This document shows, in pieces, positions 16,802-33,302 of a DNA stretch of 64,000 nucleotides; within the stretch, counting starts at the first letter, position 1; each line of letters opens with the position of its first letter. The notes beneath the pieces were generated by a model. It made no database searches. It was not told the origin of the DNA and saw only the letters and a list, made by a program, of their open reading frames with translations. Location: NCBI GenBank assembly GCA_017536895.1, contig JAFWCN010000006.1, forward strand, positions 1 through 64,000, given 5' to 3'. A program made the translations under genes and the position numbers. This stretch comes from Candidatus Saccharimonadota bacterium. Its GTDB lineage: Bacteria > Patescibacteriota > Saccharimonadia > Saccharimonadales > Saccharimonadaceae.

Positions 16802-16818
16802 TGTAGAGGAGAAATAAC

Positions 16819-17241: not shown

Positions 17242-17304
17242 TCAGAACCTCTTGGGCGTGGAGGTTAACTACGCCCACTATGTAATCTAAACAAGGACAA
17301 TCCT

Positions 17305-17616: not shown

Positions 17617-17930
17617 CCAGTTTTACAGAGATATGGAAGAGCCTTGAACCGAAGGCTTTTGAAATCGGTATTCATTTGGCGGAGTTTTGGGAATTGAATT
17701 ATGGCCAGTTCGAACATTGCGTCGATGGCTATTTCGCTCGAATTAATTCGCAAGTAAGGATTCAAGACCAATTGAATCACGTTTTGGGCAGATATATCAT
17801 TCCGGCCGTCCATGAGCCGAAAAAGTATCCAAAGGAGCCTTATAGCAAGGAGCAGGAGAGAGAAAAGACCTTTATCTCCAATACAGATAATGACCGAATC
17901 GCAAGAGCGAAAATGTTGTACGGAAAGTAG
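17544..17930 (+). CDS. Tail assembly chaperone, -1 frameshift extension (gpGT-like)
   Basis: After the heptamer the -1 frame is open without a stop from 17550 to 17930 and reads ...GLTSFTEIWKSLEPKAFEIG, IHLAEFWELNYGQFEHCVDGYF, clearly coding. A free-standing ATG at 17676 would cut off this conserved part and lacks a ribosome site. The fused gpGT product would be about 208 aa. This matches the programmed -1 frameshift of lambda G/GT genes. Confidence 0.8.
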   Translation, partial: FFRGEGQVQHRTSQEGTPQSSEGLTSFTEIWKSLEPKAFEIGIHLAEFWELNYGQFEHCVDGYFARINSQVRIQDQLNHVLGRYIIPAVHEPKKYPKEPYSKEQEREKTFISNTDNDRIARAKMLYGK

Positions 17931-17935
17931 GTTTT

Positions 17936-20593
17936 ATGGCTGAAATTAACGATATTAAAGTTAAAATTGCGGCAGACGCTTCTGGCGTCAAAAAAGGCAC
18001 TAGCGACGCTACCAAGCATTTGCAAGGGTTTGCTGGCAGTGCGGCTAGTGCTTTTTCGGGTATTTCCGCGAAAGCCGTTGCAGTTGGTAATGTTATCGCC
18101 AGAGCAATCTCTAAAGCGTTCCAGATGATTGCTAGTTCAATCGATGATGCCATTAAGCGCGTCGATACGCTCAACAACTTTCCTACCGTCATGCAGAACC
18201 TCGGCATTGGTGCCGATATTTCGACAAAGTCAATCAATTATCTCCAGGAGAAATTATTAGGGCTACCGACGACGTTGGACAGTGCAGTCGCGTCGGTCAA
18301 GCGCTTTACGGCCGCTAACGGCAATCTTGAAGCCTCTACTAAAATGTTCGAGGCGGTCAATAATGCGATTCTAGCTGGTACCAATGATGTCCAAATGCAA
18401 GCATCGGCCCTAGAACAGCTTACTCAGGCTTACACTAAAGGCAAGCCGGAGATGCAGGACTGGAAGACACTATTGCAAGCTATTCCTGGTCAGTTGAACC
18501 AAATCGCAATTGCGATGGGTTATGCTAGCTCGAATGCTCTTTACGACGCTTTGCAAAAAGGCGAAGTCTCGATGAATGACTTCATGAGGACGGTCGTTAA
18601 GTTAAACAATGAAGGCGTTACTGGCTTTGCGTCATTCTCGGAACAAGCAAGAAGTTCTGTCAACGGCATTCAGACATCTATTACTAACCTTAAGACTGCG
18701 ATTACGAGAGGTTTGGCAACAATTGTCGATGCTATTGGACAGACAAATATCGCGGCATTCTTTAATGGTATCGCTTCTGCCATCGGTACAGCCGCCAACT
18801 ATGTCGCCGCATTCGTAAGAATCATCTTGACGGCTATTAATGCATTGCGCGCATTGTTTGGCCAATCGGCTATCCAATTCGGCAAAACATCAAGTTCAGC
18901 AGATTCTACGGCCGGTGCGGTTGGAGGAATTGCAGACGCCGCGGACGATGCAACAAAGGGCATTGACGGAACTAGCAAAGCGGCAAAGAAGTTAGCGCAA
19001 CAGCTTGCTGGTTTCGACGAAATGAACGTTCTTAAAGAGCCTGATTCTGGCTCAGGCGGCGGTTCGGGTTCAGGTGGTGGAGCTGGCGCCGCAGATTTAA
19101 GTGGCATTGATTTCGGCTCTCTTGATGTCGGCTCGCTCACAGATAAGGTTCAAGAAGCATTCGATAAGATTATGTCTATCTTTAGTAATTTAGACCTCTC
19201 GAAGTGGTATGCCGCAATTAATAAATTCAAAAAGGGCGCAATTAAGGCATTTGAATTGATTCAGAAAGTCGGCACATCGGCATGGGATAACCTTTTCAAA
19301 CCTTTGGCAAAATATGTAGCTGAAAACACGCTACCGGATATGATTTATGGCGTATCGGATGCTCTTGAGCGAATTAATGTAGATTCTATCGGCAAAGGCG
19401 TAGATACATTCTTCAAGGGCTTAGAAACTACATGCCAGGGTCTACTTGATATACTTACTCCTCTGGTTACGGTCTTGTCTGGCTTCGTGACTTGGCTAGG
19501 CAATATTGTCCTGCCGCCAGCATTGTCAATTCTTGGCGCAACATTTGAAATTATCGGTAATGTCCTAACTGGCATTGGTGAAGGAATTCAATATGTTTGG
19601 ACGGAAGAAATCCAGCCAGCGCTCGACGCTTTTGCTAAGGCGTTCCAGCCTATCATTGACAAGATTAACGATGTATTTGCCGCAATTGGCGAGTGCACGC
19701 CATTAATGGAGATTTTCAAGGGTATTGGGCAAGCTATCGGTATTATCGTAGGTGGAGCATTCGAAGCAGTTGCAGATGCAATCATGATTGTCGTAGGCTT
19801 TATTCTAATCGCCATTGACTTCTTCATTGAGATGGGAGAATGGGCCGGAAATGTAATTCTTGATATTATCGACTTCTTCTCTAATTTGGGCGAAAACATC
19901 CACAATATTTTCGAAAACGCCAAGAAATTCATCTGCGACGTTTGGAAAAATATCTGGGACTTTATGGTTAAGATTTTTACCCCAATTGGCAATTTCTTCA
20001 ATAATTGTTTCAACGCAATCAAGAATGCGCTAAGCGGAGTCGCAAATTTCTTTGGGAATATGTTTAGTAATGCATTTAACGCCGTTAAAAATGCATTCTC
20101 AGCAGTCGGTAGCTTCTTCCAGGGTATCTTTAACACAATCAAGGGTATTTTCGTAAGCATTGGTACTACTATCGGAAATGCCGTCAGTGGCTCTTTCAAG
20201 GGTGTAGTGAATGGAATTATCGGTTTCGCAGAAGGATTCGTTAATACCCCTATCAGGGCTATCAATGCACTCATCGACGTAATCAACGCCATTCCTGGCA
20301 TTAGTATTGGAAAGCTAGGTGAGCTACATCTACCTCGCATGGCCAAAGGTGGCATTGTTGACGGTGCAACTGTAGCAATGATTGGCGAACGTGGTAAAGA
20401 GGCAGTCATGCCACTAGAAAACAATACTGGATGGATTGACAAGTTCGCTCAAGATATTCAGGAGCGCGGCGGAACAAACAACGAGCCTATCCATGTGACC
20501 GTAAATATCGGCGAGGATACGCTCGTTGATAAGATTATCGATGGCGTGAACGACAAATCGTTCTTAAATAATAGACTAGTCCTTAATATCTAG
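17936..20593 (+). CDS. Tail tape measure protein
   Basis: 885 aa, the largest + strand gene, 5 bp after the chaperone. N-terminal TMP domain (VDTLNNFPTVMQNLGI, ALEQLTQAYTKGKPEMQDWKTLLQAIPGQLN), a Gly/Ser linker near residue 370 (GSGGGSGSGGGAGA), then long hydrophobic repeats (FFNNCFNAIKNALSGVANFFGNMF and similar) and the tail-tip PRMAKGGIVDGATVAMIGERGKEAVMPLEN. It fixes tail length and may form the DNA channel in the membrane. Its stop overlaps the stop of the convergent gene (CTAG). Confidence 0.95.
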   Translation: MAEINDIKVKIAADASGVKKGTSDATKHLQGFAGSAASAFSGISAKAVAVGNVIARAISKAFQMIASSIDDAIKRVDTLNNFPTVMQNLGIGADISTKSINYLQEKLLGLPTTLDSAVASVKRFTAANGNLEASTKMFEAVNNAILAGTNDVQMQASALEQLTQAYTKGKPEMQDWKTLLQAIPGQLNQIAIAMGYASSNALYDALQKGEVSMNDFMRTVVKLNNEGVTGFASFSEQARSSVNGIQTSITNLKTAITRGLATIVDAIGQTNIAAFFNGIASAIGTAANYVAAFVRIILTAINALRALFGQSAIQFGKTSSSADSTAGAVGGIADAADDATKGIDGTSKAAKKLAQQLAGFDEMNVLKEPDSGSGGGSGSGGGAGAADLSGIDFGSLDVGSLTDKVQEAFDKIMSIFSNLDLSKWYAAINKFKKGAIKAFELIQKVGTSAWDNLFKPLAKYVAENTLPDMIYGVSDALERINVDSIGKGVDTFFKGLETTCQGLLDILTPLVTVLSGFVTWLGNIVLPPALSILGATFEIIGNVLTGIGEGIQYVWTEEIQPALDAFAKAFQPIIDKINDVFAAIGECTPLMEIFKGIGQAIGIIVGGAFEAVADAIMIVVGFILIAIDFFIEMGEWAGNVILDIIDFFSNLGENIHNIFENAKKFICDVWKNIWDFMVKIFTPIGNFFNNCFNAIKNALSGVANFFGNMFSNAFNAVKNAFSAVGSFFQGIFNTIKGIFVSIGTTIGNAVSGSFKGVVNGIIGFAEGFVNTPIRAINALIDVINAIPGISIGKLGELHLPRMAKGGIVDGATVAMIGERGKEAVMPLENNTGWIDKFAQDIQERGGTNNEPIHVTVNIGEDTLVDKIIDGVNDKSFLNNRLVLNI

Positions 20594-21159
20594 TCGTGAA
20601 GTTCGATAACAACTTCTTTCTTGCCCCAGTAATCAGGCTTATAGTGGACTTTTAGACCGGTATCGTCTTGCGGAACTTCAAACACAATCGTGCCGGTCTT
20701 TTTGCCGCCACTAGTCAATTCGCCAGAGTTTAGGGCGTTATCTCCTTGCGCCATACCTTCCCAGCCGCGAACATCACCTTCCGATGTCTCAATCTTCCAG
20801 TTCATTACATTGTAAGAAATTGTTTCGTTTGAATTGTTTTCAATCGTCACAGCTATCTGAACAAACTCTTGCCCAGAATCCGGTTCGACTAATTCAGACA
20901 CATAATTACGGGAGATGGAGTCAACGGTCACCTTCTGGCCATCGACTTCTACCGTATCACCAATGACGAACGGTTTGTTTTCCGTTTGGTTGTTAGAACT
21001 ATTATTCTCTTTAGCTTGATTAGACACATCGCTAATATGCTCAGAACCGCCTCGCATACCTACGCCAATACTGCCAACGAAAATAATCACTATGACCCAA
21101 AACCACCACTTTTTATAGATTGGAGTTTTAGAGTTATTATTCGTTGCTTTGGTTGCCAT
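20590..21159 (-). CDS. Membrane-anchored DUF4352-like Ig-fold protein
   Basis: 189 aa. Basic N-terminus, one membrane helix (WWFWVIVIIFVGSIGVGM), a Ser/Asn linker, then an external beta domain with VEVDGQKVTVDSISRNYVSE and GQEFVQIAVTIENNSNETISYN, the DUF4352 pattern. Last gene of a three-gene - strand unit behind the Panacea pair and overlapping it by 23 bp, so it may be a third component (membrane effector or superinfection barrier) or just lysogenic cargo. Confidence 0.7.
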   Translation of the reverse strand: MATKATNNNSKTPIYKKWWFWVIVIIFVGSIGVGMRGGSEHISDVSNQAKENNSSNNQTENKPFVIGDTVEVDGQKVTVDSISRNYVSELVEPDSGQEFVQIAVTIENNSNETISYNVMNWKIETSEGDVRGWEGMAQGDNALNSGELTSGGKKTGTIVFEVPQDDTGLKVHYKPDYWGKKEVVIELHD

Positions 21160-21637
21160 CTGGCTCCTCCTTTTGGTTACTTACATCGGGTCTAATTAGC
21201 TTCTTATACTCCGGCAAGACATTATCGCTTGCCAGCGCCGCATTAACTAGGCGGTCTACGTCTTCTTGCGAGAGCTGGTTGCCTATGAGCTTCGCATCGT
21301 CGTTATCAAATGAAATGTCTTCGATATTGATTGTGTGAACCGAGTTACAGTTGAATAAGGTCGGTTTCGTAATGAAACTATACGAACCGGCTTCAAGAAT
21401 TACTGTTGTAGCCTCAACATCTACATGGGTGCGGCGTAGATAGTTGGTTTGTTTCTCTACCTGCGACGTTCCATTTGTTAATAACAAAACGTCTCCAGTC
21501 TTAGGGTCAAAGTTTAAGACGGCAAAAACATGATAATCCTCACTCTCGAAAGGAATATCTCCGCGCAATCGAAAAACAAAACCTTGCTTGATTAGATTAT
21601 TAAAAGCAGACTTCTTTACTTCGTTTGGGATTTCCAT
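21137..21637 (-). CDS. Probable toxin of a Panacea (PanAT-type) pair
   Basis: 166 aa, 6 bp after the Panacea-domain gene. Beta-rich: GDIPFESEDYHVFAVLNFDPKTG, DVLLLTNGTSQVEKQ, ILEAGSYSFITKPTLFNCNSVHTI. This looks like an SH3-barrel protein of the PemK/MazF-like type, but no exact family is claimed. Partner and position suggest toxin function; the target is unknown. Confidence 0.55.
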   Translation of the reverse strand: MEIPNEVKKSAFNNLIKQGFVFRLRGDIPFESEDYHVFAVLNFDPKTGDVLLLTNGTSQVEKQTNYLRRTHVDVEATTVILEAGSYSFITKPTLFNCNSVHTINIEDISFDNDDAKLIGNQLSQEDVDRLVNAALASDNVLPEYKKLIRPDVSNQKEEPDGNQSNE

Positions 21638-21643
21638 CAGCTT

Positions 21644-22276
21644 TTAGCCCTCGATTCCGAATATAACAGCAAGTTCTTTTTGCGCTTCTTTGTTATCCTC
21701 GTAAATGCCACGCGCCGCTTCTAAACGGTCTTCATCCTCGGCGAAATACTCGTCATTGTCTGGATTCTTAAAGAAATCCTCTAAATCAATGTTCTTGCGC
21801 CCACCGTTCGTTTCGAAAAACTTTCGGAACTTACTCCATTCGGGATAACGATGGCTAATATCATCGGAGAGTTCAAAAGTCTCTATGTCTTTGAATTTTT
21901 CCCACGCTTCTTTAAGCATGGCTTTGTCGCTTTCAGAAAGATAGCCATCGCCTACATCTTTCTGCATGCTAGTGCTTCTATCGTCAGAAGTAAAATACTC
22001 TTCAAGATATTCTTTATCAGCATCAGAAAGAACGATACCGTCTTTATCCATTTGAGGAATATCTAAAGCAAGGGAACAGACTGGCCCGTGCGCCATGGCA
22101 TAATAATCGGACTCAGAAATAGTACGTCCATATCTGCGGAGATGTAATCTATCTGCCGCCCAAAGGAGCTTTATAAGTTTGACTCTGTCCATTTTATGGT
22201 TATCGTCAAGAGACAACAAAAAACCGAGCGCCTGTGAGACTTTTATCACATTTTTGGATGCTTTCTTCTCGTTCAT
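21644..22276 (-). CDS. Panacea (SocA/DUF4065-like) antitoxin
   Basis: 210 aa. KVSQALGFLLSLDDNHKMDRVKLIKLLWAADRLHLRRYGRTISESDYYAMAHGPV is the Panacea/SocA fold signature, used as a versatile antitoxin domain in PanAT systems. The C-terminal half is acidic and helical. AAGGAG precedes the ATG. First gene of the unit with the putative toxin and the DUF4352 protein. It could stabilise the prophage or act in phage defence (inference from the family). Confidence 0.8.
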   Translation of the reverse strand: MNEKKASKNVIKVSQALGFLLSLDDNHKMDRVKLIKLLWAADRLHLRRYGRTISESDYYAMAHGPVCSLALDIPQMDKDGIVLSDADKEYLEEYFTSDDRSTSMQKDVGDGYLSESDKAMLKEAWEKFKDIETFELSDDISHRYPEWSKFRKFFETNGGRKNIDLEDFFKNPDNDEYFAEDEDRLEAARGIYEDNKEAQKELAVIFGIEG

Positions 22277-22443
22277 AATTGCTATCTCCTTACTATTATT
22301 TTAACATATTTTTTTATTTTTGTGAATATTGCTATTGTGTTTTCGAAATATTTGTGCTACTTCCATTTTAACATAAGCATAAATTTAATGCAAAAATGAA
22401 TCTAATTACGTCGAATTCGACGTAATTAAAATAAAAAATCCTA

Positions 22444-22472
22444 TTGCAAAGATTTTTAGCATGCATTAGTAT
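22444..22472 (+). promoter_or_regulatory. Promoter of the secreted cargo gene
   Basis: TTGCAA (22444-22449), 17 bp, TAGTAT (22467-22472). The leader is about 50 nt and ends in AAGGGGG before the ATG. It is isolated from the late modules, so the gene is probably on in the lysogen. Confidence 0.65.
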
Positions 22473-22530
22473 AGGGAAATGCAGGTTTTGAGTTAATCGC
22501 ACATTAATTACTAAGGGGGTACCAAAATAT

Positions 22531-22962
22531 ATGAAAAATATTTTTGGACGATTCATTGTACCGCTTGCTGTTGTTGCAACACTGTTCGGCAACGTAAGCG
22601 CAACGGCTATGGCCGCAGACTCGGAGACAGCTACAGAGCCGAGTGCGGTCTATTCTGCATCTACCGACGACACTTCTGACTCAGGTAAGGTAACACCAAC
22701 CCGTGCGTATAAGAGCATCTATAGCGACATCGAAACGCTCATCTACACCGGTAATGGCTCTGACCGCTGGCTCCATATTACGCCTTGGGTAACACCTAAC
22801 ACTTTCACCATCAGAATGGTCGACTACAGTGGGACCACCGTTTGGAACCAGACTTTCTACACTACAGGAACTACAGACTGGTTCATCGGTTCGAATGTTC
22901 GTTATGTCTATCTTCAGGGCATCCCTGGTGGCGTAGTCCAGGTCACCGACACCGCAAACTAA
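22531..22962 (+). CDS. Small secreted protein (lysogenic-conversion candidate)
   Basis: 143 aa with a classic signal peptide (FIVPLAVVATLFGNVSATAMAA, cut after Ala-x-Ala near residue 29). The mature part is a short Thr-rich linker and a beta domain (YTGNGSDRWLHITPWVTPNTFT, TVWNQTFYTTGTTDWFIGSNVRYVYLQG). No family recognised. Own promoter and terminator and opposite strand to its neighbours mark it as a moron gene expressed from the prophage. Confidence 0.75.
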   Translation: MKNIFGRFIVPLAVVATLFGNVSATAMAADSETATEPSAVYSASTDDTSDSGKVTPTRAYKSIYSDIETLIYTGNGSDRWLHITPWVTPNTFTIRMVDYSGTTVWNQTFYTTGTTDWFIGSNVRYVYLQGIPGGVVQVTDTAN

Positions 22963-23000
22963 CGTAAGTCTATAAGCCAATGATTAACTCAAGAACTGTA

Positions 23001-23028
23001 CCCTCCGGCAATAGCCGGGGGGATTTTT
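23001..23028 (+). terminator. Rho-independent terminator after secreted cargo gene
   Basis: CCCTCCGGC/GCCGGGGGG hairpin followed by ATTTTT. Confidence 0.8.
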
Positions 23029-23095
23029 CATGGTTCGTAAAATTCACTAATTAGCTATAGTGCCAAATTACGAACCCCTATAGGTTCACTTAGAC

Positions 23096-23132
23096 AAGAA
23101 AAACGCTCCCTACAAAAGAGGTAGAGAGCGTT
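23096..23132 (-). terminator. Rho-independent terminator of the 23157-23534 gene
   Basis: On the - strand AACGCTC...GAGCGTT, with inner CTAC/GTAG, followed by TTTTCTTG. Confidence 0.8.
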
Positions 23133-23156
23133 CACTTATCTCCCAATAGTATTCAA

Positions 23157-23534
23157 TTAATCGCCTAAAGCTTCGGCGTACCCGCCTTTACCGCCAGCGA
23201 ATTCGGATGGATGTTGGAAATAAAGCGTATGATACTCTTTACTACCAGATGGTTCATGAGTATCGGCGTCATAATTCTGGCACCAGAATCTAACCGACAC
23301 TTCATTGTCTTTCGAAAGACTATGGCTTTCCATTTCGCAAACTTGATTATCCTTCTGATAATTCAGTTTAACGAACCTACTTAGCAAATGGTCTTGAAGA
23401 GCAAGATATTCCTTATCTTCTGCGCTCTTAATGTTTGCACAGCAATAAATTAAGGCTCCAACTAGAGCCACTACTACACACCCCAAAACAATACAAGGAG
23501 TCTTGTAATTATTTTTTGTGTTTTGTTTTTTCAT
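23157..23534 (-). CDS. Small membrane-anchored phage cargo protein
   Basis: 125 aa. A single N-terminal membrane helix (CIVLGCVVVALVGALIYCCA) and a hydrophilic outer part with three further Cys and KEYHTLYFQHPSEFAGGKGGYAEALGD. Function not recognised; the layout resembles superinfection-exclusion or lysogenic surface proteins. It has its own terminator, and the candidate small RNA (23626-23747) lies upstream on the same strand. Confidence 0.65.
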   Translation of the reverse strand: MKKQNTKNNYKTPCIVLGCVVVALVGALIYCCANIKSAEDKEYLALQDHLLSRFVKLNYQKDNQVCEMESHSLSKDNEVSVRFWCQNYDADTHEPSGSKEYHTLYFQHPSEFAGGKGGYAEALGD

Positions 23535-23625
23535 TTTTGTTTCCTTTGTTTAATATTTTAACCTTTACCACGATTATATAACAGTCAACATTATTGTCAA
23601 GACCTGCGCGTAAACATCACACAAC

Positions 23626-23747
23626 AAAAAATCGCCTCATGGACGATTCCTTGCTTGACCAGGCATCCCGAAGAATGACCTGGCGAGCCACTGGCGTTGA
23701 AGCCATGAGCTCTGTCAGCGGCTAAGCTGTGCAGGACAGCACAACCT
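23626..23747 (-). ncRNA. Candidate phage small RNA
   Basis: On the - strand a TATAAT (23759-23754) with TAGACG 18 bp further upstream would start RNA near 23747. The sequence folds into a 10-bp stem with a UUCG loop and one bulge (23659-23683), a long-range CTCATGG/CCATGAG pairing, and ends in AATCG...CGATTTTTTG, a terminator. It has no long reading frame. Alternatively it is a leader with attenuator for the gene at 23157-23534. Confidence 0.5.
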
Positions 23748-23760
23748 ACCAATATTATAG

Positions 23761-24240
23761 CTTAAGCAACGCGATTACGTCTATAACAACGAAAAGAGGT
23801 TAATTACCGTCGATGAAGCACCACACCATTCTACGCATGTCGGACAAGTTATTATGTCGACAACGCTTGATACCGCGGCAAAGGTTCAAGCTATTTATGG
23901 CGGAACTTGGGAAAGATGGGGTGCAGGACGTGTGCCGGTTGGCGTAGACCCAAATGATACTGATTTTGATGAACCAAATAAGACAGGCGGTAGTAAGACC
24001 GTTATCTTAACGAAAAACCAGCTGCCAAAGATTCAGGGTGAGTTCGAAGCAGTCGTATATGATAGTTATGCATCTACGGGCGTTTTTTATAATACGACGC
24101 ATTCTGGCGGCAAAACAGGACGAAACGGCGGCGCATACACATCTCCAATTTGGTCTTTCGGAATGAAGTTCGGGAACGATGAACCGCATGAGAATATGTC
24201 GCCGTATCGAACGCTATATATGTGGCTACGAACTGCCTAA
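23761..24240 (+). CDS. Silent tail-fibre tip cassette A (no start codon)
   Basis: Open from just after TAG (23758-23760) to 24240. The product would read YVYNNEKRLITVDE, GQVIMSTTLDTAAKVQAIYGGTWERWGAGRVPVGV and end PHENMSPYRTLYMWLRTA, parallel to the last 150 aa of the expressed fibre. The ATG at 23854 falls in the middle of this homology and has no ribosome site. Only cassette A reaches back to the 24-bp repeat; the others begin later. Confidence 0.7.
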   Translation, partial: LKQRDYVYNNEKRLITVDEAPHHSTHVGQVIMSTTLDTAAKVQAIYGGTWERWGAGRVPVGVDPNDTDFDEPNKTGGSKTVILTKNQLPKIQGEFEAVVYDSYASTGVFYNTTHSGGKTGRNGGAYTSPIWSFGMKFGNDEPHENMSPYRTLYMWLRTA

Positions 24241-24253
24241 TCGCCCCTGTTAG

Positions 24254-24481
24254 CTGATACAGACCGTTACATTGAACGTAAACCAAATGCCTAGACACAC
24301 GCACACGATTTTTGGTCGCATTGATAGGTATCAGGGTAATGGCACTGTGTTCAGGGAACCATTTGAAGGTACTGCTATTTCAGCTCGTAATGATGTTGCT
24401 ACTGATTATGCTGGTGGCGGCCAGCCGCACGAGAATATGCCCCCATACGAAACAATCTATTATTGGTTGAGAACCTCTTAA
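24254..24481 (+). CDS. Silent tail-fibre tip cassette B
   Basis: Opens directly after a TAG and reads LIQTVTLNVNQMPRHTHTIFG ... GGGQPHENMPPYETIYYWLRTS, an alternative collar-type tip of about 75 aa. Its first 22 bp (CTGAT..AGACCGTTACATTGA) recur inverted at the start of cassette C (20 of 22 identical). No start codon context. Its stop overlaps that of convergent cassette C. Confidence 0.65.
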   Translation: MIQTVTLNVNQMPRHTHTIFGRIDRYQGNGTVFREPFEGTAISARNDVATDYAGGGQPHENMPPYETIYYWLRTS

Positions 24482-24705
24482 TCTGTACGAATCCACATAT
24501 AAACAGTAGAGTATGGTGGCATATTCTCATGGGCTTTTCCTCCACCAACAGGGATAGCCTTCGAGTCTGAGCTTCCAGTTGCCGTTCCGGGGTCAACCGT
24601 CCATTGACCAGAGGAGCCAACTGCAATATTTGTATCTGTACGATATGGAAGCGGATGTTTATGGCTAGGAATCTGCTCAAGCGTCAATGTAACGGTCTCA
24701 ATCAG
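24478..24705 (-). CDS. Silent tail-fibre tip cassette C
   Basis: Reads LIETVTLTLEQIPSHKHPLPY ... GGGKAHENMPPYSTVYMWIRTD on the - strand. Same conserved entry (TVTL) and exit (PPY.T.YMW.RT) as the expressed fibre, with a different middle. It lies between the stop of B and the stop of D and has no own start. Confidence 0.65.
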   Translation of the reverse strand: MIETVTLTLEQIPSHKHPLPYRTDTNIAVGSSGQWTVDPGTATGSSDSKAIPVGGGKAHENMPPYSTVYMWIRTD

Positions 24706-24706
24706 T

Positions 24707-24939
24707 TTAAGAGGTGCGCTTCCACATGTACAATGTCATATACGGTTGCATATTATTATGAGCTTGACCTCCGCCTGTATCTCTCACGGCTGGTCTACTA
24801 TCACCACCAGTTGAGCCTGCTAGTACCGTTGAGTATGCGCTTTGCGAACCACCAGTGTAGCCGAGCGTGTAGTTTATAGCTCCATGATGGTGAGATGGGA
24901 TATGTTCTATTTTCAAGGTTACGGTCTTACCCTCTATTA
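24707..24939 (-). CDS. Silent tail-fibre tip cassette D
   Basis: Reads LIEGKTVTLKIEHIPSHHHGA ... GGGQAHNNMQPYMTLYMWKRTS on the - strand. Its start is back-to-back with cassette E, so the two TVTL segments form an imperfect inverted repeat around 24915-24960. No start codon context. Confidence 0.65.
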
Positions 24940-25200
24940 GATATAAAAACTGTTACATTGACCGCGGCGCAGATGCCTAAACACTATCTGACGGTGCCAC
25001 ATATTGCATATATGGAAAACTCATATTCTGTCAGTAATGGAACTCACACTACGGGCTCGCCTGTCAGTAGTGAACATGAGGGCGCCGAGGCGTCTATTAG
25101 TGGCAATAGAGACTCGCACAAGTTTTCGTTTGGTAGTGGTAGCGCACATAATAACTTACAGCCTTATATAACCGTATATATGTGGAGAAGAACAGCTTAA
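24937..25200 (+). CDS. Silent tail-fibre tip cassette E
   Basis: Reads LDIKTVTLTAAQMPKHYLTVPH ... GSAHNNLQPYITVYMWRRTA on the + strand. Its stop overlaps the stop of the expressed fibre at the palindrome GCTTAAGC. The in-frame GTG-type start further upstream is outside the homology. AAAACTGTTACATTGA-type entry sequence matches the expressed fibre. Confidence 0.65.
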   Translation, partial: LDIKTVTLTAAQMPKHYLTVPHIAYMENSYSVSNGTHTTGSPVSSEHEGAEASISGNRDSHKFSFGSGSAHNNLQPYITVYMWRRTA

Positions 25201-27311
25201 GCCGTGCGGCGCCAAATATAAACCGTAATGTATGGCTGAAGGTTCCCATGTGCTTGGCCGCCGCCAGTTTTATTGATTAGCGCGCTCACGGTAGGGTATG
25301 GGTTATTACTTGTCGTTTGATATACAACTCTGACATTTGGGTCAGCCCATGTCGCTGGATTGCCATTTGGGAAGCCGGCAATGGTGTGTGTATGGGACGG
25401 CATCTGGTCGACAGTCAATGTAACAGTTTTACTACCGCCAGTCTTACCAACGGTTGCAAAATCAGTATCACTTGTGTTGATACCGACGAGTGTTCGACCA
25501 CTTGCGAATGCCGACCATGTACCGCCAAGAAATGTTGATGGGTTCTTATTGACATAACTGATATAAATAGAGCCGACGGGATAAATCTTGTTTAGAAGCT
25601 GAGTGGTTAGTGCCGAACCGGTTAAATCATCAACGGTCAACATCCTCTTTTCGTTGTTATAGACGTACCCATCAGTTCCAATGCGAAAAGTTGCAATACC
25701 AACCGAAACAGATAGCGCAACCGTTGTCCCCGTAAATTCATCGGCAATTTTAGTTTCGACATCCCATTGATAATTATTATCGAGAGTTACAGAAAACTCT
25801 GGAACCGTCCAGTTGCTCCCCGAAATGCTGACAGCTTTGGAAACCCATGCGCCCCAGCTAGAGCTCGAAGATTGCTTCACGCGATATTGGAAGGTGAGGG
25901 TATTCTTTACAACACCATCAATGGTAATAGGCGAATATACGCCGGAGGCCCTGATTCTAGTGTCGGGTTCGAAATTATTGACACGCTGAGCTGATGAAGA
26001 AATCGTCGGAGCCGACCATGGATAAATGACTACCTGTTTAGAAACAGCTTTAGAGGTCGAAAGACTATCAATAGCCGAAACCGTAAGACTACTCGTTCCG
26101 GCCTCGGTAGGAGTTCCTAGCTGAATATTGACATTGGAGTCACTAGAATAACTAGCTGTATTAGAGCGTCCGGTTAAAACGGCTGAGTAATTCGTGACAT
26201 TAACGCCATCATTTCCGGTCGCTTTGTTTGCTTGCGAAATCGTAATCAGTGGGACAGATTGGCCCTGAATCATTGTCTGATTATTGCCGGTCAAGGCAAC
26301 CGTATCAGGGTTGTTGTCGACATACTCGAAATTAGAAAAATTTGGCGCAGTGTGCGTATTTAAGGTCGAGAAAGTAACTGTCTTAATTGTCGAGTCTCCG
26401 CCGTTCGGAGTAGACAGCTTGGCTTGCAATCTGATGCTTGAGCTGGTTGGTAGATTAGCGGTGAAGGTTGCAGCCGTTCCAGCTGCGACGCTAACCGTTC
26501 CGAAGCTAGTCCATGCCGAATAAGTCGAACCTCCGTCTGTAGAGTATCGATAATACCCAGTTCTTGTCTCCGCGCCACCATCGGCTTGACGCTTGTAAGA
26601 GATGACCGCGTTGACTTTATTGTATGTCGAATATGACTGACTAGTAAATGTGAGCGTAGAGAGCGGAGGACATGGCGTGTAGAATGTCCCAGCGACTTTT
26701 TTATCACTCGCCTGTGTGTTTGAAGCAAAACAACCGTACCAGTATTTATGGTTGCCTTCAATACTAAATGAGCTCGGATTCGCATTGGAGGAGTTATTGA
26801 CGGTAATTGTTGAAGATGTAGTGTTGCTAGCAGTTGCAAATCGGTACGATGTACCGTAAGAATTCTGGCCAAGAATTGCCGCTTCGATATATCTACCATT
26901 TGCACTAGCAGGAGTGCCATATGACGAAACCGAGGTTGCAAATGTGGCCGAATTGTAAGTCTTAGACTTAAGTGTTACCGACAGACCACTTGGCTTGGCA
27001 ATTCCGCTCGGAATGTAGCCTGTACCAGAGTAGTTTACTGAGCCAGAGTACCAAGGGCAGGTGTAGGAGACTGTTCTATTGCCAGCCGAGAGTGAGCCTT
27101 CCCAGAGCGTGCAACTGCCGGTAACTAGCTTTTGGCCTAAATTGTTGCCATCGACGGTAAAGTTATTAAAATAAACGTAAATACTTGCGCCAGAATTAAG
27201 TTCAAAAATCACCCTCGACGAACGACTTTCGCCAGTCGACGAATCATCGTATTGCAGTCTAGTATAGCCATACCCGCCGGTATTGATTGATTCAACCGTA
27301 ACCCAACTCAT
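25197..27311 (-). CDS. Tail fibre / receptor-binding protein (expressed copy)
   Basis: 704 aa. Long Ser/Thr-rich beta-repeat shaft with fibronectin/Ig-like units, then a collar-type tip from about residue 560: FRIGTDGYVYNNEKR, KIYPVGSIYISYVNKNPSTFLGGTWSAFASGRTLVGI, KTGGSKTVTLTVDQMPSHTHTIAG and GGGQAHGNLQPYITVYIWRRTA. It should bind the host surface. Overlaps the tail protein upstream by 1 base (ATGA type). Its tip is the one placed in frame at present; five alternatives follow. Confidence 0.88.
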   Translation of the reverse strand: MSWVTVESINTGGYGYTRLQYDDSSTGESRSSRVIFELNSGASIYVYFNNFTVDGNNLGQKLVTGSCTLWEGSLSAGNRTVSYTCPWYSGSVNYSGTGYIPSGIAKPSGLSVTLKSKTYNSATFATSVSSYGTPASANGRYIEAAILGQNSYGTSYRFATASNTTSSTITVNNSSNANPSSFSIEGNHKYWYGCFASNTQASDKKVAGTFYTPCPPLSTLTFTSQSYSTYNKVNAVISYKRQADGGAETRTGYYRYSTDGGSTYSAWTSFGTVSVAAGTAATFTANLPTSSSIRLQAKLSTPNGGDSTIKTVTFSTLNTHTAPNFSNFEYVDNNPDTVALTGNNQTMIQGQSVPLITISQANKATGNDGVNVTNYSAVLTGRSNTASYSSDSNVNIQLGTPTEAGTSSLTVSAIDSLSTSKAVSKQVVIYPWSAPTISSSAQRVNNFEPDTRIRASGVYSPITIDGVVKNTLTFQYRVKQSSSSSWGAWVSKAVSISGSNWTVPEFSVTLDNNYQWDVETKIADEFTGTTVALSVSVGIATFRIGTDGYVYNNEKRMLTVDDLTGSALTTQLLNKIYPVGSIYISYVNKNPSTFLGGTWSAFASGRTLVGINTSDTDFATVGKTGGSKTVTLTVDQMPSHTHTIAGFPNGNPATWADPNVRVVYQTTSNNPYPTVSALINKTGGGQAHGNLQPYITVYIWRRTA

Positions 27312-29674
27312 TAACTATCACTCCTTACGAATGCCCAGCCGTTATTTTGGGGCACTAATTTAATCGGTGGCATACTAATGCCTTCTGTAAACTCCGCTTT
27401 CGGTGCCGCAATGCCGTCATCATTAATCGTTGCAACCATGGTATTATTTTGGAAAGCAGACAATTCCTGAGGCGTTTGTTTCGTGTAAGTTCCGTTTAGA
27501 GAACTTGAACGAACCGTTACGCCATTGCTGTCAATTGCGACCTGAGTATTAGCAAATTCACCATTAGCTTGAGTCCATTGGCTTTTATAATCACCAACGG
27601 CTAGCATCATATCGTTGATACTGAATTCGGAATCATTGGAGCCATAGACCGATACGGTCAAGCTAGGAGAATTCGGCAAAATACCTTCTAGGCTATATTC
27701 TTTGTAGAACGCCTCATCGCCGTTATTTAGGGCAATATCCCAAACGCCATTTTCCGTACCATCAGTAATCCTGATTAAACATTCGCCAGGCGCAGTTTTC
27801 TTAATCTTGCAAGAGAACGAATAATATGTCTTATCTACGATACTGGAGTTATCTGCTTTAACATCGACCACCTGTGTAGCTGTCTTATTTTTGAGCGTGA
27901 TGTTTTGGCGTGATAATGAACCATTCACCGCAGATTCCGCCGATGGCGCAATTGTAATAGTGCCGTTTCCGCTCAAAGCCCATGAGATAGGCAATCCATC
28001 ACTATCAAGCGAATACATTGCGGAGTTCTTTAGCAGGTTGTTGCCGCCAGAATTTTGAACAGATGTAACAACATCCGAGATAGTTTGAGTAACGGTCGTG
28101 AAGTTTTCATTCACCTGATTTTCGAGTGTAATCTGCTCTTCGACGATTGACTCAATGGTCTGGCCTTGCTTGTCGACTTTGATTTCGGTGTTGTAGACCG
28201 TTTTCGTAATACCGCCGGCGAGCGCATAGTTGGTTTGAGTCTCGTCAGGAGCAATGCCTTTAATGACTTCTTTAAGCGAGCCATCGATAGTGAGCTTAAT
28301 GTCTGTAATAACGACGTCCCAAGAATTAGTATCGTTTGCAATCGTAAGCCTATCGCCACACTCATACCAGCCATGGCCTTCCGTAGTTGCCTCAAACGGG
28401 CAGAATTCAAAACCATCAATAGCGTTCAAGATTGGCGTAATCATTTCTTCGCGATTGTCATCGAGAATCTCATTGTTGGCCAACTTAAGCTCGGTTAATC
28501 CGTTAGGCTTGAATGGCTCATAACTACTCGCCGAACTGCCTTTCTCGATTTGATATGTTTCGATTATTTCTTCGAAAGATGGCGTAGTGGCATTATTTTT
28601 AACTACATATACGCCAAGATAGTGTGCATTGTTTGGAGTTGTGATTGTATGCGCTAAAGCAGTATCGTCTCCTTGTCGCACACCTACAGAATTCAAGACT
28701 GGCTCATTATTCAATGGCGGATTAGCTGTAGTAAAAACACAGAAACGCGGATTAGTGCCAACTACGGCCCTCGAGACGGTATATGTTGTATTTGGCTCGC
28801 ACGGAATATAGATATTTTTGAAAGCGCCAGGTGAGGTCATTTTATTAGTGGACGAGCTTGCGTAGCAAGTGGTAATATTTGCGTTATCTTTATCAAAAAG
28901 GTTTTTTCCGCCAGCAGCATTTCTCATAGCTTCATCGACAACAGCGATATTATCTTCAGCTGGCGTTCTTGCAAGCACGACACTATCTACCGGGCCATAC
29001 TTAGGCTCTACTTTAACTTTGCGCAAATTCGAATAAGTTAGAGTCTCTTGGCTCTGAAAACCCGGCATAGCGACGGTCAGGGTATTATTTAGGCTATTTG
29101 TCCGTGGCAAAGTAGCCGTTGCACCGGCAAACTCAGCCAAAATGTCACGATAGGTAATACCGCTAATTTTCGCATACAAATCTTCAGGGATTACATAGTC
29201 ACCGTTAGGCAAGTCATTTTCAACGGAATAGACCATACCAAACTTGTTTGCAATCTCTGCGACCAATTGTTTAACCGTACAAGGGAAGGTAATTTCGCCT
29301 TCTTGATATGGCGTAAGCGCCGCCAAAGCAATACTATCGTATGCTTTAACGGTAGTAACACCTTTTTCCAAATCCGTTGTTTGCTCACGGACGAGATACT
29401 TGCCGTAATCGCAAGTTTCCCATACAGAATCAGCCAATACCTGTAGCTCGACTAGCAAATTCTTCTCAACCAAGTCGTATTCCGTACCGATAAGAGTGAA
29501 GCTTAGCACTTTCGTTGCGACACCGAAAAAATAACCACTCTGCTCAATCTCAAACTTTTGTAGAACATCGCTTGATGTATAAACATTTTCTGTTCCTTGG
29601 ACCGTGATGGCCGCCTGCAGCGTTTTGACAGGCGCCTTCATCGCGTCTTTGAATGCTTCTGATACCTCAATCAT
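27311..29674 (-). CDS. Tail-associated (Tal/gp18-type) baseplate protein
   Basis: 787 aa. N-terminal ~370 aa follow the tail-tip hub pattern (VSEAFKDAMKAPVKTLQAAITVQ, YGKYLVREQTTDLEKGVTTVKAYDSIALA, SGITYRDILAEFAGATATLPR), with a carbohydrate-binding-like insert (GGKNLFDKDNANITTCYAS). The C-terminal part contains helical and jelly-roll-like segments leading to the fibre. It would form the tail tip and connect fibre to tube. Confidence 0.8.
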   Translation of the reverse strand: MIEVSEAFKDAMKAPVKTLQAAITVQGTENVYTSSDVLQKFEIEQSGYFFGVATKVLSFTLIGTEYDLVEKNLLVELQVLADSVWETCDYGKYLVREQTTDLEKGVTTVKAYDSIALAALTPYQEGEITFPCTVKQLVAEIANKFGMVYSVENDLPNGDYVIPEDLYAKISGITYRDILAEFAGATATLPRTNSLNNTLTVAMPGFQSQETLTYSNLRKVKVEPKYGPVDSVVLARTPAEDNIAVVDEAMRNAAGGKNLFDKDNANITTCYASSSTNKMTSPGAFKNIYIPCEPNTTYTVSRAVVGTNPRFCVFTTANPPLNNEPVLNSVGVRQGDDTALAHTITTPNNAHYLGVYVVKNNATTPSFEEIIETYQIEKGSSASSYEPFKPNGLTELKLANNEILDDNREEMITPILNAIDGFEFCPFEATTEGHGWYECGDRLTIANDTNSWDVVITDIKLTIDGSLKEVIKGIAPDETQTNYALAGGITKTVYNTEIKVDKQGQTIESIVEEQITLENQVNENFTTVTQTISDVVTSVQNSGGNNLLKNSAMYSLDSDGLPISWALSGNGTITIAPSAESAVNGSLSRQNITLKNKTATQVVDVKADNSSIVDKTYYSFSCKIKKTAPGECLIRITDGTENGVWDIALNNGDEAFYKEYSLEGILPNSPSLTVSVYGSNDSEFSINDMMLAVGDYKSQWTQANGEFANTQVAIDSNGVTVRSSSLNGTYTKQTPQELSAFQNNTMVATINDDGIAAPKAEFTEGISMPPIKLVPQNNGWAFVRSDS

Positions 29675-29681
29675 ACAGACC

Positions 29682-30056
29682 TCACATCTTCGACACCGGA
29701 ATTAAGTTCACACTAAAACTCTTATAAAGCTTTCTCTGACGGTCAAGAATCTCTGGCTCATAATCGCCAGCATAATACTGAGCAGTCCTCGTTTGCTTAA
29801 GCTTTGCATCGTGATAAGTGACATTGAAATACGGCTCATCAAGCAACGCGCAAATCGTGGATACTTCATCTTCAGTTAAAGCATCACGAAAAACAATCGA
29901 AATCTTAGGGAAGACGCCAATCAGAGTAGCGCGAACATCGCCATTCATATTGCGGTCGGCGTCTTTCCATAGCTTGTTACGGCCAACCTTATACTCCTTG
30001 ATTCCAGGAATTGTCGTATTGTTAATCTTTAGTAAGTCACCATTGGCAATGCTCAT
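29682..30056 (-). CDS. Distal tail-like protein (DUF6711 type)
   Basis: 124 aa from ATG 30056, which shares one base with the preceding stop (TAATG); the longer frame to 30092 lies within that gene. LLKINNTTIPGIKEYKVGRNKLW, RNMNGDVRATLIGVFPKISIVFRDALTEDEVSTI and FNVTYHDAKLKQTRTAQYYAGDYEPE fit the DUF6711 phage family, placed where a distal tail (Dit-like) protein is expected. Confidence 0.75.
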   Translation of the reverse strand: MSIANGDLLKINNTTIPGIKEYKVGRNKLWKDADRNMNGDVRATLIGVFPKISIVFRDALTEDEVSTICALLDEPYFNVTYHDAKLKQTRTAQYYAGDYEPEILDRQRKLYKSFSVNLIPVSKM

Positions 30057-31375
30057 TACGCTTTCCTCAAAGAGCTCGGTGCGACCGCGCAACGCACGGT
30101 TCCATTAGCGGTTCGAAGGACCGCCATACCGCGCCCATTATTTTCCGTCCAAATCGAATTACCATCGTTGATAATTTTCAAGTTGAGATAAGTGCCATTT
30201 TGGTCGGTCTGGCTAGTCGTGATAACGTGGTCACCAATTTTAGCTGAACCATTGCCAGATGGAGCCGGAGTGCTACCACTAGAAAGCTGATTCACGATTG
30301 CCTGGACTGCATTGTAGTCATATCCTGCCGCGCGAAGCCTTTGCTCACGCTCTGGCCAGTTGCCCCAATCGCCACGAAGACACTCGCGAGCCAGCTCTTC
30401 ATTCGACTTTTTAGCTGGAGTCGGAGCTGGGGTATTGCCGTTGTAAATGTTTGGACGATAATGGCAAAGATAGCCGTTTAAGCTGAGGCTCATTAGGTTG
30501 AATGGGCAACCAACGCTTGCATCTCTTGCACCTTGGTTTTGGCCAAAGAATTTACCGTTGTAATACATCGCGACATGGCCATATTGACCAGTGCCCCAAA
30601 TCACCCAGTCACCATTTTGCAATTTGCCGTCTGTATGGCGAGTAAAGCCCATGTTAGCTAGGTCTGCGCCTTGGTTTGCGTAGCCATTGGCGCCACCGCC
30701 AGCACAAGCTAAGATACGGCCACAAAGTGAATACTGGAATTCTTTGAACCCAGCGACACACTGCATCCCAAAGCCTTCATTAAAGCCCTTGCCATTAACC
30801 GCATTTACGAACTTATCCGGAGTGGAGACATCGACTTTATAATATGGCCAAGCGCCATTCTGGGACTTAACCTCATCTTCGGTTTTCTCTTTGCCGTCGC
30901 CTGAATCATGTCTAATGTTTACGGCTTTGGCGATTACTTCGTCGCCATCTAAATCAATAGCGATTCCGGTTTCGTCGTCAATCTCCGCTTCGAGAACGGT
31001 CTGACGAATTTGCGCAATCTGCTTCTCGGAAAGACCAAACGCAAGTAATGCTTCGCTAATGGCGTAACCAATTGCGCCAATATCAGCGATAAATAGCCCT
31101 ACGAGCAAGGTTTTTACTGATACTTGGTCAATTCCTTGGACATCAACGCCAGACGCGTCTACGAGGCTCAGGAAGGCCAAGATAAGCGCCGCTAATCCTC
31201 CGATAGCTAGAGTCAAAAGAATCGGCTTCAGCGAGCCGCTTAAGAATTTCTTCCAATCAAATTTAATATCTTCAATCGCGATTTTTTTGTTTTTGAGATA
31301 GCCAAAGATACCACGGAGAGTCATAGCTCCGAAAAACACTCCAGCCGCTCCTAAGCACATTAGAATGTCGTTCAT
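30056..31375 (-). CDS. Holin-endolysin fusion (membrane N-terminus, CHAP, Cpl-7, SH3-like)
   Basis: 439 aa. Residues 1-130 hold three or four membrane helices (ILMCLGAAGVFFGAMTL, PILLTLAIGGLAALILAFL, TLLVGLFIADIGAIGYAI), as in a holin. A CHAP amidase/peptidase domain follows: Cys in GFGMQCVAGFKEF, His in GDWVIWGTGQYGHVAMYYNG, GQNQG. Then a Cpl-7 wall-binding repeat (ELARECLRGDWGNWPEREQRLRAAGYDYNAVQAIV) and a C-terminal SH3-like part. Fusing the pore and the lysin in one chain is unusual; a membrane-tethered lysin would need no separate export. Confidence 0.85.
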   Translation of the reverse strand: MNDILMCLGAAGVFFGAMTLRGIFGYLKNKKIAIEDIKFDWKKFLSGSLKPILLTLAIGGLAALILAFLSLVDASGVDVQGIDQVSVKTLLVGLFIADIGAIGYAISEALLAFGLSEKQIAQIRQTVLEAEIDDETGIAIDLDGDEVIAKAVNIRHDSGDGKEKTEDEVKSQNGAWPYYKVDVSTPDKFVNAVNGKGFNEGFGMQCVAGFKEFQYSLCGRILACAGGGANGYANQGADLANMGFTRHTDGKLQNGDWVIWGTGQYGHVAMYYNGKFFGQNQGARDASVGCPFNLMSLSLNGYLCHYRPNIYNGNTPAPTPAKKSNEELARECLRGDWGNWPEREQRLRAAGYDYNAVQAIVNQLSSGSTPAPSGNGSAKIGDHVITTSQTDQNGTYLNLKIINDGNSIWTENNGRGMAVLRTANGTVRCAVAPSSLRKA

Positions 31376-31698
31376 TATTTGCCTCCTTTCGGCTTATTTG
31401 TCGAGCGCATGCTATTTTCTACGCTCTTATACCATTGGTTATATTCATCAACCCTTTTGGTAACTTCACCATTGCCGCCGTTTTTGTGGTAAACGGAATA
31501 CTCGTCTTGAATCCTGCCATAATTCATTGGGAATTTCTTGAAAGCCTCCCAATTGAACTGGTCCTCCATGCACATTTGTAGAATTGACTGTTTTGCGGAA
31601 TGCCTACGGCTCAATCTGTTCTGCCAGAGCGAAGCAAAGAGAGTCGCTAAGCTAGGCACGCCAGCTGTAATTAATGCAACTATAATCGAATCGCCCAT
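31375..31698 (-). CDS. Small membrane protein of the lysis module
   Basis: 107 aa from ATG 31698. One N-terminal membrane helix (SIIVALITAGVPSLATLFASLW) then a basic, helical cytoplasmic part. It overlaps the holin-endolysin start by 1 base. The topology and position suggest a holin partner or antiholin. Confidence 0.65.
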   Translation of the reverse strand: MGDSIIVALITAGVPSLATLFASLWQNRLSRRHSAKQSILQMCMEDQFNWEAFKKFPMNYGRIQDEYSVYHKNGGNGEVTKRVDEYNQWYKSVENSMRSTNKPKGGK

Positions 31699-31727
31699 CT
31701 TATCCTTTCTTGGTTCTGGCGCCCCAC

Positions 31728-32096
31728 TCACGAGGCGCCTAGTCTTTCAGTGAAAAAGTCTATCTGCTTCTGAATTTCCTTACGAAAAGCTACATCGTCG
31801 ATATGGACATACAGCCAAGCCAGCGCCCGGCAGATGCCAAATCCGTCAATCTCGTATTTTCGGTCTTGGTACGCCTCCCATGCAGCTTTCATCATTTCTT
31901 CGGACGGGACCGGAATCTCTTTGACGATATATTGATGAAGTTCGTTGTGAATCCCAACCGGAATTTCGCGAATAAAAGCATGACGTACGAGATACGCATA
32001 GCCGTAACTCCAATCCCTGCGCGGATAAAGCAAGTGGTGATGATTCACTTCACGCTTGCGCTGGAGTTTACGAATCCTTCGACCTCTTCTTCCCAC
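31728..32096 (-). CDS. His-rich HNH-like phage protein
   Basis: 122 aa if started at GTG 32096, after GGAGGTGATT; longer in-frame starts overlap the previous gene more. NHHHLLYPRRDWSYGYAYLVRHAF followed by GIHNELHQYIVKEIPVP is the histidine pattern of small HNH/zinc-site proteins often found near phage lysis or replication genes. Nuclease activity not shown. Confidence 0.6.
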   Translation of the reverse strand: MGRRGRRIRKLQRKREVNHHHLLYPRRDWSYGYAYLVRHAFIREIPVGIHNELHQYIVKEIPVPSEEMMKAAWEAYQDRKYEIDGFGICRALAWLYVHIDDVAFRKEIQKQIDFFTERLGAS

Positions 32097-32298
32097 ATGA
32101 ATCACCTCCATATTCAGATTCAATTTCGCCAAACATAGAGCAGAAAGCAATTATGTCTACGGCATCATCAAATGAGACATCGCCGTAAACGAGAACGATT
32201 TTGCCCAAATCGGTCAAATTAACCTCGTAGCGCTTAATGAGCGACCAGAGTTTCTTGCTGTCGAACGGTCCTTGAATTTTTACCATTAGGTATGCCAT
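32068..32298 (-). CDS. Phage hypothetical protein
   Basis: 76 aa, first gene after the third late promoter module. MAYLMVKIQGPFDSKKLWSLI, acidic centre (GDVSFDDAVDIIAFCSMFGEIESEYGGD), no recognised domain. Confidence 0.6.
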   Translation of the reverse strand: MAYLMVKIQGPFDSKKLWSLIKRYEVNLTDLGKIVLVYGDVSFDDAVDIIAFCSMFGEIESEYGGDSCGKKRSKDS

Positions 32299-32349
32299 AA
32301 AATCACTCCTCCCACATGGACGGATAGACTTTCACCTTTATAATGTGCT

Positions 32350-32407
32350 CAAAAAACGCCCTGAAGCTATAAGCCTCAAAGCGTTATCGACTACTTATAT
32401 TATATCA
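32350..32407 (-). promoter_or_regulatory. Late promoter with leader terminator, copy 3
   Basis: On the - strand: TGATATAAT (extended -10), ATAAGTAGTCGATAACGC, hairpin CGCTTTGAGG..CTTCAGGGCG and TTTTTTGAG. It drives lysis, tail-tip and fibre genes (32298 down to 25197). Base-for-base kinship with the + strand copies at 7690 and 13457 links all structural units to one control signal. Confidence 0.7.
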
Positions 32408-32521
32408 TAAAAGCACCACCTTTTTGAGTGATGCTAATGGTTGGCAAACCTTAACGACAAAATTTAGACGGTCACATCCAGAGAAGTGCTAACTGGTGCT
32501 AGTAACCATAACTATATTATA

Positions 32522-32689
32522 TCACTTCTTGAATATCTTCTTATCAACGAAATAAAAAATGCACCCACCTACAAAATTAGCAATCACCGTTGCCCAAAAG
32601 CTCCCCAGATTAGAGAGCAGGGCAAGGCAAATGGCTAAAATTGGAGTAGAAAGTTGCCATCGGAGTAAATAAAGCAGAAATCTCTTCAT
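32522..32689 (-). CDS. Small two-helix membrane protein
   Basis: 55 aa, MKRFLLYLLRWQLSTPILA then AICLALLSNLGSFWATVIANFVGGCIFYFVDKK. ATG overlaps the stop of the HicA-like gene (ATGA). Two membrane helices and a basic end; possible holin-like or anchor role, unproved. Confidence 0.65.
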   Translation of the reverse strand: MKRFLLYLLRWQLSTPILAICLALLSNLGSFWATVIANFVGGCIFYFVDKKIFKK

Positions 32690-32886
32690 CGTCTACCTTT
32701 CTTGGTATTGTTCAGCAGTTGCCTCCGAACAGATAACTCTATATTCTTCTTTATCTTATTTGGAATAGTTATTTTATCCGGCCTATTTGGATGAACGAAT
32801 TGGCAATGGCTTCCTCTTTGGCGCAATAATATCCAGCCATTGTCCTTGAGGAGCTTAATCAATCTATCTCTCTCTGAATTTGCCAT
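32686..32886 (-). CDS. HicA-like toxin domain protein
   Basis: 66 aa. DRLIKLLKDNGWILLRQRGSHCQFVHPNRPDKITIPN is the HicA fold with its catalytic histidine in GSH. HicA proteins cleave mRNA. No HicB partner lies beside it; the next gene is a membrane protein, so it may be orphan or serve a different purpose in the phage. Confidence 0.8.
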   Translation of the reverse strand: MANSERDRLIKLLKDNGWILLRQRGSHCQFVHPNRPDKITIPNKIKKNIELSVRRQLLNNTKKGRR

Positions 32887-32888
32887 TA

Positions 32889-33302
32889 CTATTTACCCAA
32901 ATAGCTGTCAATCAACGCTTTCGCTTCTTCGAACCCGCAAGCAAATTCGGCTTCGTAGCCTTGTTGGCGAAGTTGCTCCAATACATCAAATTGCTCGCGA
33001 ATATGTTCGTCAGCTACAAGCGTGCCGTCTTTTTTGAAGATTCGGGTTCCTTCTTTCTTTAATTCCAAGAAAAGTCCAGCACATAAAGTACCGTTTATCT
33101 GATTTTCGATACTTACCCAAGGTTTAGCTATAAACATATCTGGCCATCCCCTGCGACCGCCATTCATATCTTTAAGTTTCTTTGCTAAGCTAATCGGTAA
33201 TTTGATACCGCCAGCATCGGTTCTAAATAACACATTAGGATAATTCTCGACCAGATAACCGGCTACGGCGATTTGAAGTTGCTCCTCAGCTTTTCTTACC
33301 AT
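32889..33302 (-). CDS. VRR-NUC domain nuclease
   Basis: 137 aa from ATG 33302 (the longer frame overlaps the next gene). FRTDAGGIKLP, MNGGRRGWPDMFIAKP, LFLELKKEGTRIF and REQFDVLEQLRQQGYEAEFACGFEEA follow the phage VRR-NUC family, a PD-(D/E)xK fold (D in WPDMF, E-x-K in LELKK). Probably acts on phage DNA structures such as branched intermediates. Confidence 0.85.
   Translation of the reverse strand: MVRKAEEQLQIAVAGYLVENYPNVLFRTDAGGIKLPISLAKKLKDMNGGRRGWPDMFIAKPWVSIENQINGTLCAGLFLELKKEGTRIFKKDGTLVADEHIREQFDVLEQLRQQGYEAEFACGFEEAKALIDSYLGK

Follow-up and report, generated by a model that had tools for sequence, protein, structure and literature searches.

We identified an array of alternative tail-fibre tips in a prophage of a Candidatus Saccharimonadota bacterium. 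We propose, with a probability of about 0.7, that it works as a shufflon-type system of multiple DNA inversions, exchanging the receptor-binding fibre tip of a temperate Saccharibacteria phage, with the phage's XerD-like integrase as the most likely recombinase. The array lies in a 64,000-nucleotide stretch of contig JAFWCN010000006.1 (our contig C1; hereafter the window) from an 836-kb genome that is 99% complete. Saccharibacteria (Patescibacteria) are minute episymbionts, and to our knowledge their phages and phage receptors are almost unstudied.

The array consists of one expressed fibre gene followed by five silent cassettes, named A to E:

25197..27311, minus strand: expressed tail fibre with a DUF859 body and a Gp10_C tip (PF05895, PF21939)
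23761..24240, plus strand: silent cassette A, a whole alternative tip domain from the outer site onward
24254..24481, plus strand: silent cassette B, the distal half of a tip, tail-to-tail with C
24478..24705, minus strand: silent cassette C, with a homologue in phage L051 (80% amino acid identity)
24707..24939, minus strand: silent cassette D
24937..25200, plus strand: silent cassette E, with a homologue in phage L026 (61% amino acid identity) that is on the fibre strand there

These positions and strands agree with an initial annotation of the locus, and no internal stop interrupts any of the six tips. A profile of the tip recovered all six tips with E-values between 1e-20 and 1e-30. It placed A at 23992-24237 (+), B at 24260-24478 (+), C at 24481-24699 (-), D at 24710-24928 (-), E at 24946-25197 (+) and the fibre tip (F) at 25200-25433 (-). 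The six tips are homologous, occupy both strands and have common heads and tails, which bears out the shared entry and exit described in that annotation. Read on the fibre strand, they run fibre.F> <E D> C> <B <A. The stop codons overlap in the two tail-to-tail pairs, F/E (at 25197-25200) and B/C, and D/E is a head-to-head pair. The cassettes sit beside the 3' end of the fibre gene and are promoterless. As had been claimed, they lack a start codon or ribosome site, and we found no start signal of their own. The reading frame is kept from the fibre site to the cassette's own stop in 5/5 cassettes, with 0 internal stops or frameshifts. Structure prediction for the tip domain was poor (predicted local distance difference test score, pLDDT, of 39).

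A short inner site lies in frame at the head of every cassette and in the fibre gene. This site, the tail-to-tail arrangement, the repeat common to F and E, and the conservation and rearrangement of the array elsewhere go beyond the initial annotation. The inner site consists of a 6-bp spacer followed by T(A/T)ACATTGA and encodes (K)TVTL:

25415..25429, minus strand: inner site of the fibre, AAACTG + TTACATTGA
24947..24961, plus strand: inner site of cassette E, AAACTG + TTACATTGA
24913..24927, minus strand: inner site of cassette D, AGACCG + TAACCTTGA
24684..24698, minus strand: inner site of cassette C, AGACCG + TTACATTGA
24261..24275, plus strand: inner site of cassette B, AGACCG + TTACATTGA
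23996..24010, plus strand: inner site of cassette A, AGACCG + TTATCTTAA

The right arm is conserved, although degenerate in A and D, and the left arm is poorly conserved. F and E have an exact 17-bp inner repeat in common (AAAACTGTTACATTGAC).

Because the bases of the site encode TVTL, protein conservation had to be excluded as the cause of its conservation. We compared codons for the same residue within each phage, using 20 tips from five phages and setting the head codons (T, V, T, L) against tail codons. Head codons were identical in 97/120 comparisons (81%), versus 82/236 (35%) in the tails, which are equally well conserved as protein; the tail value is near the 0.18-0.28 that codon usage predicts for Thr, Val and Leu. 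The head Leu codon was TTG in 19/20 tips (usage 0.21), and the second head Thr codon was ACA in 15/17 (usage 0.25). The difference between heads and tails rules out protein conservation as the cause. The inner sites are conserved as DNA, not only as protein. Exact copies of T(A/T)ACATTGA number 4 in the 34-kb prophage (0.7 expected), all at heads. The 33-kb contig G295, which carries a related phage, has 6 copies, comprising four heads and the two arms of the phage attachment site (attP).

The spacers are matched by pair. Tail-to-tail partners have the same 6-bp spacer in 8/8 pairs, and other combinations differ (AAACTG versus AGACCG in the window; AGACTG versus AGGAAG in L026). A rough count by hand puts the chance of such matching under random labelling at about 0.01. 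A site-specific recombinase would need such matching within pairs for strand exchange.

A second, outer type of site encodes YVYNNEKR:

25644..25667, minus strand: outer exchange site in the fibre, an exact 24-bp inverted repeat with 23776-23799
23776..23799, plus strand: outer exchange site in cassette A, an exact 24-bp inverted repeat with 25644-25667

The initial annotation had reported this repeat, and we found it exact over 24 bp and 88% identical over 41 bp. When the region was shuffled 200 times, the longest exact inverted repeats reached 17 bp at most (mean 11.4). The other reported repeat, bounding B and C with 20 matches in its first 22 bases, was also recovered and extends over 57 nucleotides at 70% identity (24254-24310 / 24649-24705). 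The right arm of the outer site, TAACAACGAA, is similar to that of the inner site (P 0.001 to 0.015).

Exchange could also proceed without a site-specific enzyme, the conserved heads and tails serving as substrates for homologous recombination or single-strand annealing through the phage's YqaJ-type nuclease. The prophage encodes a YqaJ domain protein (37897-38688). Within each phage, the outer (YVYNNE) arms show no differences over about 18-24 bp, but between phages they differ at synonymous positions, as they would under gene conversion. However, the repeats measure only 15-24 bp, and identity is limited to the head site, whereas the tails, whose protein sequence is conserved equally well, have diverged at synonymous positions. 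Exchange by homology also predicts neither the spacer matching of tail-to-tail pairs nor the match to an attachment (att) arm described below, and we consider it quite unlikely. Site-specific inversion is most likely the act of exchange.

Similar arrays with other orders and orientations are present in four related phages: L026 (contig G295), L094 (G375), L051 (G144) and L222 (G398). With the window, arrays are kept in five phages from at least two host genera. The IMG/VR phage L026 expresses, as its fibre tip, a homologue of cassette A, which is silent in the window (66% amino acid identity), and the E homologue of this phage has the opposite orientation to E in the window. The C homologue of L051 is antisense to the fibre. 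In L094, a single alternative tip is inverted and bears an exact 18-bp repeat; a second cassette pair in tail-to-tail arrangement sits about 6 kb away from the fibre (L094 16016-16550) and has its own spacer, AGGCGG. Three tips in L222 are antisense, and its outer cassette has a different type of tip. Additional scans of viral sequences, using cassettes A and E and the integrase as queries, returned no further two-strand arrays. An orphan tip stands alone, without an array, in G125 (L066). Several assemblies are broken inside the fibre or tip array (the ends of L051 and L350, and L013, L014, L016 and L017), which is expected of a region of mixed order and is a weak hint only.

Alternatively, the tips could be relics of past mosaic exchange between phages, with rearrangement having ceased. 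Cassettes that lack promoters and ribosome sites would fit such an origin, as would the single orientation known in this assembly. The condition of the cassettes argues against it. Homologues of C, silent in both phages, have nonsynonymous (dN) and synonymous (dS) divergences of 0.145 and 1.37, and dS between the E homologues is saturated. Judging from these comparisons, the silent cassettes are under purifying selection. Since they are conserved across phages, they must be expressed at times. Selection between silent homologues, five cassettes free of stops and frameshifts, and arrays retained in five phages make relics a very improbable explanation. The initial annotation had named decay by stop codons as a sign against switching and had suggested comparing related prophages for shuffled cassettes. 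No such decay was found, and the four relatives contain cassettes in other orders and orientations. The shufflon-like layout it described is further upheld by the intact reading frames and the DNA-level constraint on the sites.

The prophage body (5807..40106) is delimited by two att spacers, which emerged from comparing the window ends with the empty site in relatives that lack the prophage. That empty site is an intact tRNA-Ala(GGC) followed by trpS.

5801..5806: attL spacer GCGCTC, within the interrupted host tRNA-Ala
40107..40112: attR spacer GCGCTC, the same 6-mer as at 5801-5806
6106..7017, minus strand: tyrosine integrase, XerC/D-like, 303 amino acids, candidate shufflon recombinase (PF00589, E-value 8e-31)

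The prophage inserted in the 5' half of the host tRNA-Ala(GGC) and destroyed it (window 5749-5830 and 40107-40136). It brought a complete tRNA-Ala(GGC) at 39984-40059. A tRNA-Ala also lies beside attP in the free phages L425 and L426.

The integrase lies about 17 kb from the array; the prophage yielded no other recombinase of the tyrosine or serine type. Its alignment to phrog_1 starts only at profile position 160. No dedicated invertase or rci-like gene was found in the prophage, either adjacent to the array, in line with the initial annotation, or elsewhere. A serine invertase is ruled out, as none is present in the prophage or in G295, which has one tyrosine recombinase and no serine recombinase. 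Resolvase-family genes occur only at 60645-63648, outside the prophage. These are two consecutive serine recombinase genes of the large type (450 and 552 amino acids) that probably belong to another mobile element.

The phage integrase is our candidate because, in related array phages, the att arm equals the shufflon arm. A perfect repeat, AATTCAATGTTA-CTATTA-TAACATTGAATT, lies just downstream of the integrase in G295. The core ATTCAATGTTA-N6-TAACATTGAAT adjoins the integrase in free phages, and a second free phage has the same site with a different spacer. In integrated relatives, one arm is swapped for host DNA exactly at the core, which identifies the repeat beside the integrase as attP. 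The attP arm TAACATTGAAT of G295 is identical to the right arm of the G295 shufflon sites (11/11, null P 1e-4). The best matches between att arm and shufflon arm were 10/11 in G375 (P 2e-4), 9/11 in G398 (P 3e-4) and 7/11 in G144 (P 0.017). The integrase family is present in all five array phages, with 45-62% identity among the four full-length members. The gene is on the same record as the array in four phages (in two frames in G398), and in G144 it is in the same genome on another contig. A search for a perfect attP-like repeat elsewhere in the genus gave only three one-mismatch sites in two genomes, none beside a recognisable integrase. In L145-L148 and L339, a further conserved (A/C)AACATTGAA copy downstream of the integrases, about 45 bp before the att core, is perhaps an accessory integrase site.

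The same inversion array could instead be driven in trans, by a host XerC/D-like recombinase (contigs C10 or C17) or by the enzyme of another element. XerD-type arms are short and A+T-rich, which counts for a host recombinase, and the host has two further tyrosine recombinases. Trans-acting invertases are known, and a bifidophage locus that lacks a recombinase has been explained in this way (PMC6109161). However, in G295 and G375 the attP arm next to the phage integrase is the same as the shufflon arm or almost so, and outside the G295 array the arm occurs only at the att site by the integrase. We regard an enzyme acting in trans as unlikely. It is fairly probable that the phage integrase is the shufflon catalyst, a step that for the window itself is weaker and reasoned from these relatives. 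We lean slightly toward the stronger proposal that a single enzyme would serve both chromosomal integration and tip shuffling, each tip carrying half an attachment site with a pair-specific spacer.

Several observations weigh against inversion driven by the integrase. An att arm identical to the shufflon arm was sought in the window as well, but the att arms at its tRNA-Ala site match only weakly (8/11, P 0.014), a likeness that could be chance. This weak match is attributable to the window lineage integrating in tRNA-Ala. Since the att arms are homologous among phages, the P values for the arm matches are not independent. An exclusive association between integrase and array is refuted, as 39/394 genomes of the family have the integrase and most of these lack an array; the link between the two is one-way. 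Other cassette orders are known from diverged relatives only: in its fibre body, the nearest phage with a rearranged array reaches just about 74% identity, which means that the rearrangement events are separated by long evolution. Finally, the fibre spacer AAACTG matches E only and not A-D (AGACCG), so strict matching leaves one inner switch directly open from the present state.

Our model for site-specific inversion by the integrase is as follows. Each cassette is a promoterless C-terminal tip, and the site at its head, read as (K)TVTL, would serve for recombination. Recombination between the fibre site and an inverted site with a matching spacer would flip the intervening DNA, placing a new tip in frame on the fibre and leaving the old tip silent. 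F and E would form a ready-made pair for this inner switch, and the outer YVYNNE sites would exchange a larger tip domain that includes cassette A. The sites on which the XerD-like integrase would act have a right arm similar to the arms of its attachment site. The expected outcome would be a switch of host range, given where the tips lie and by analogy with known fibre shufflons.

Other features of the window were also noted. The prophage contains a tRNA-Met (CAT) gene at 36886-36961 and, near the fibre region, a gene for a SocA/Panacea antitoxin-like protein (21644-22276). A perfect 26-bp palindrome, TAATTACGTCGAATTCGACGTAATTA (22403-22428), lies between the SocA-like gene and a gene for a small secreted protein and is a possible operator. 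Two similar large secreted proteins (408 and 522 amino acids), encoded about 47 kb apart at 44-1270 and 48212-49780, have a CPANWTLPKSGN segment in common.

We compared the array to known systems for diversifying phage fibres and adhesins. Min, Cin and Gin (p15B, P1, Mu) use a serine recombinase, hix-type sites and an enhancer. Here too, alternative phage fibre C-termini would be inverted to switch host range, but no small serine invertase is present in this prophage. Diversity-generating retroelements diversify phage receptor-binding tips and need a reverse transcriptase and a template repeat. No reverse transcriptase was found among the prophage proteins scanned with Pfam, which did not include every small open reading frame, and the cassettes are whole alternative tips.

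The Rin shufflon of bifidobacterial and Eggerthella lenta prophages is likewise found in temperate phages and joins a constant fibre or receptor-binding protein N-terminus to silent variable C-termini in both orientations (PMC6109161, PMC8778435). In both systems, a short asymmetric site precedes every variable C-terminus and recurs within the constant gene, and both have an XerD-type tyrosine recombinase without an arm-binding domain, here the candidate integrase. Rin is a dedicated invertase beside the array, distinct from the integrase (PMC6109161, PMC8778435). Here, in contrast, no such invertase was found, and the candidate is an integrase some 17 kb away whose att arm matches the site in relatives. 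The array also differs from Rin in its two nested site types, pair-specific spacers, repeat sequence and tip family. The R64 shufflon of IncI plasmids (Rci/sfx) similarly combines a tyrosine recombinase with several tail-to-tail alternative C-terminal segments, alternating in orientation downstream of one constant gene, and in its asymmetric sites a spacer separates a left arm that varies from a right arm that is conserved (PMC11852207). In R64, a single 7-bp spacer is conserved, the rci gene is adjacent, and the protein varied is a plasmid pilus adhesin (PMC11852207), whereas the present array has a 6-bp spacer conserved only within pairs (AAACTG, AGACCG), no rci-like gene and a phage fibre as its target. 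Because it lacks the defining adjacent dedicated invertase, we do not assign the array to the R64 or Rin type.

Phage tail-fibre shufflons are known, and the published tyrosine-type examples have a dedicated invertase beside the array. Our literature searches found no report of a shufflon in Saccharibacteria phages, nor of an integrase with this double role. The probable double use of the integrase is new, as are spacers specific to each pair, two exchange points nested in the fibre, and the host group. If the integrase works on the tips, a phage could acquire a host-range switch through half att sites evolved in a fibre gene, without any additional gene, and searches for a neighbouring invertase would overlook such arrays. 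One recombinase would then link the switching of host range to integration and excision. That the fibre repertoire is under selection suggests that Saccharibacteria cells have variable receptors.

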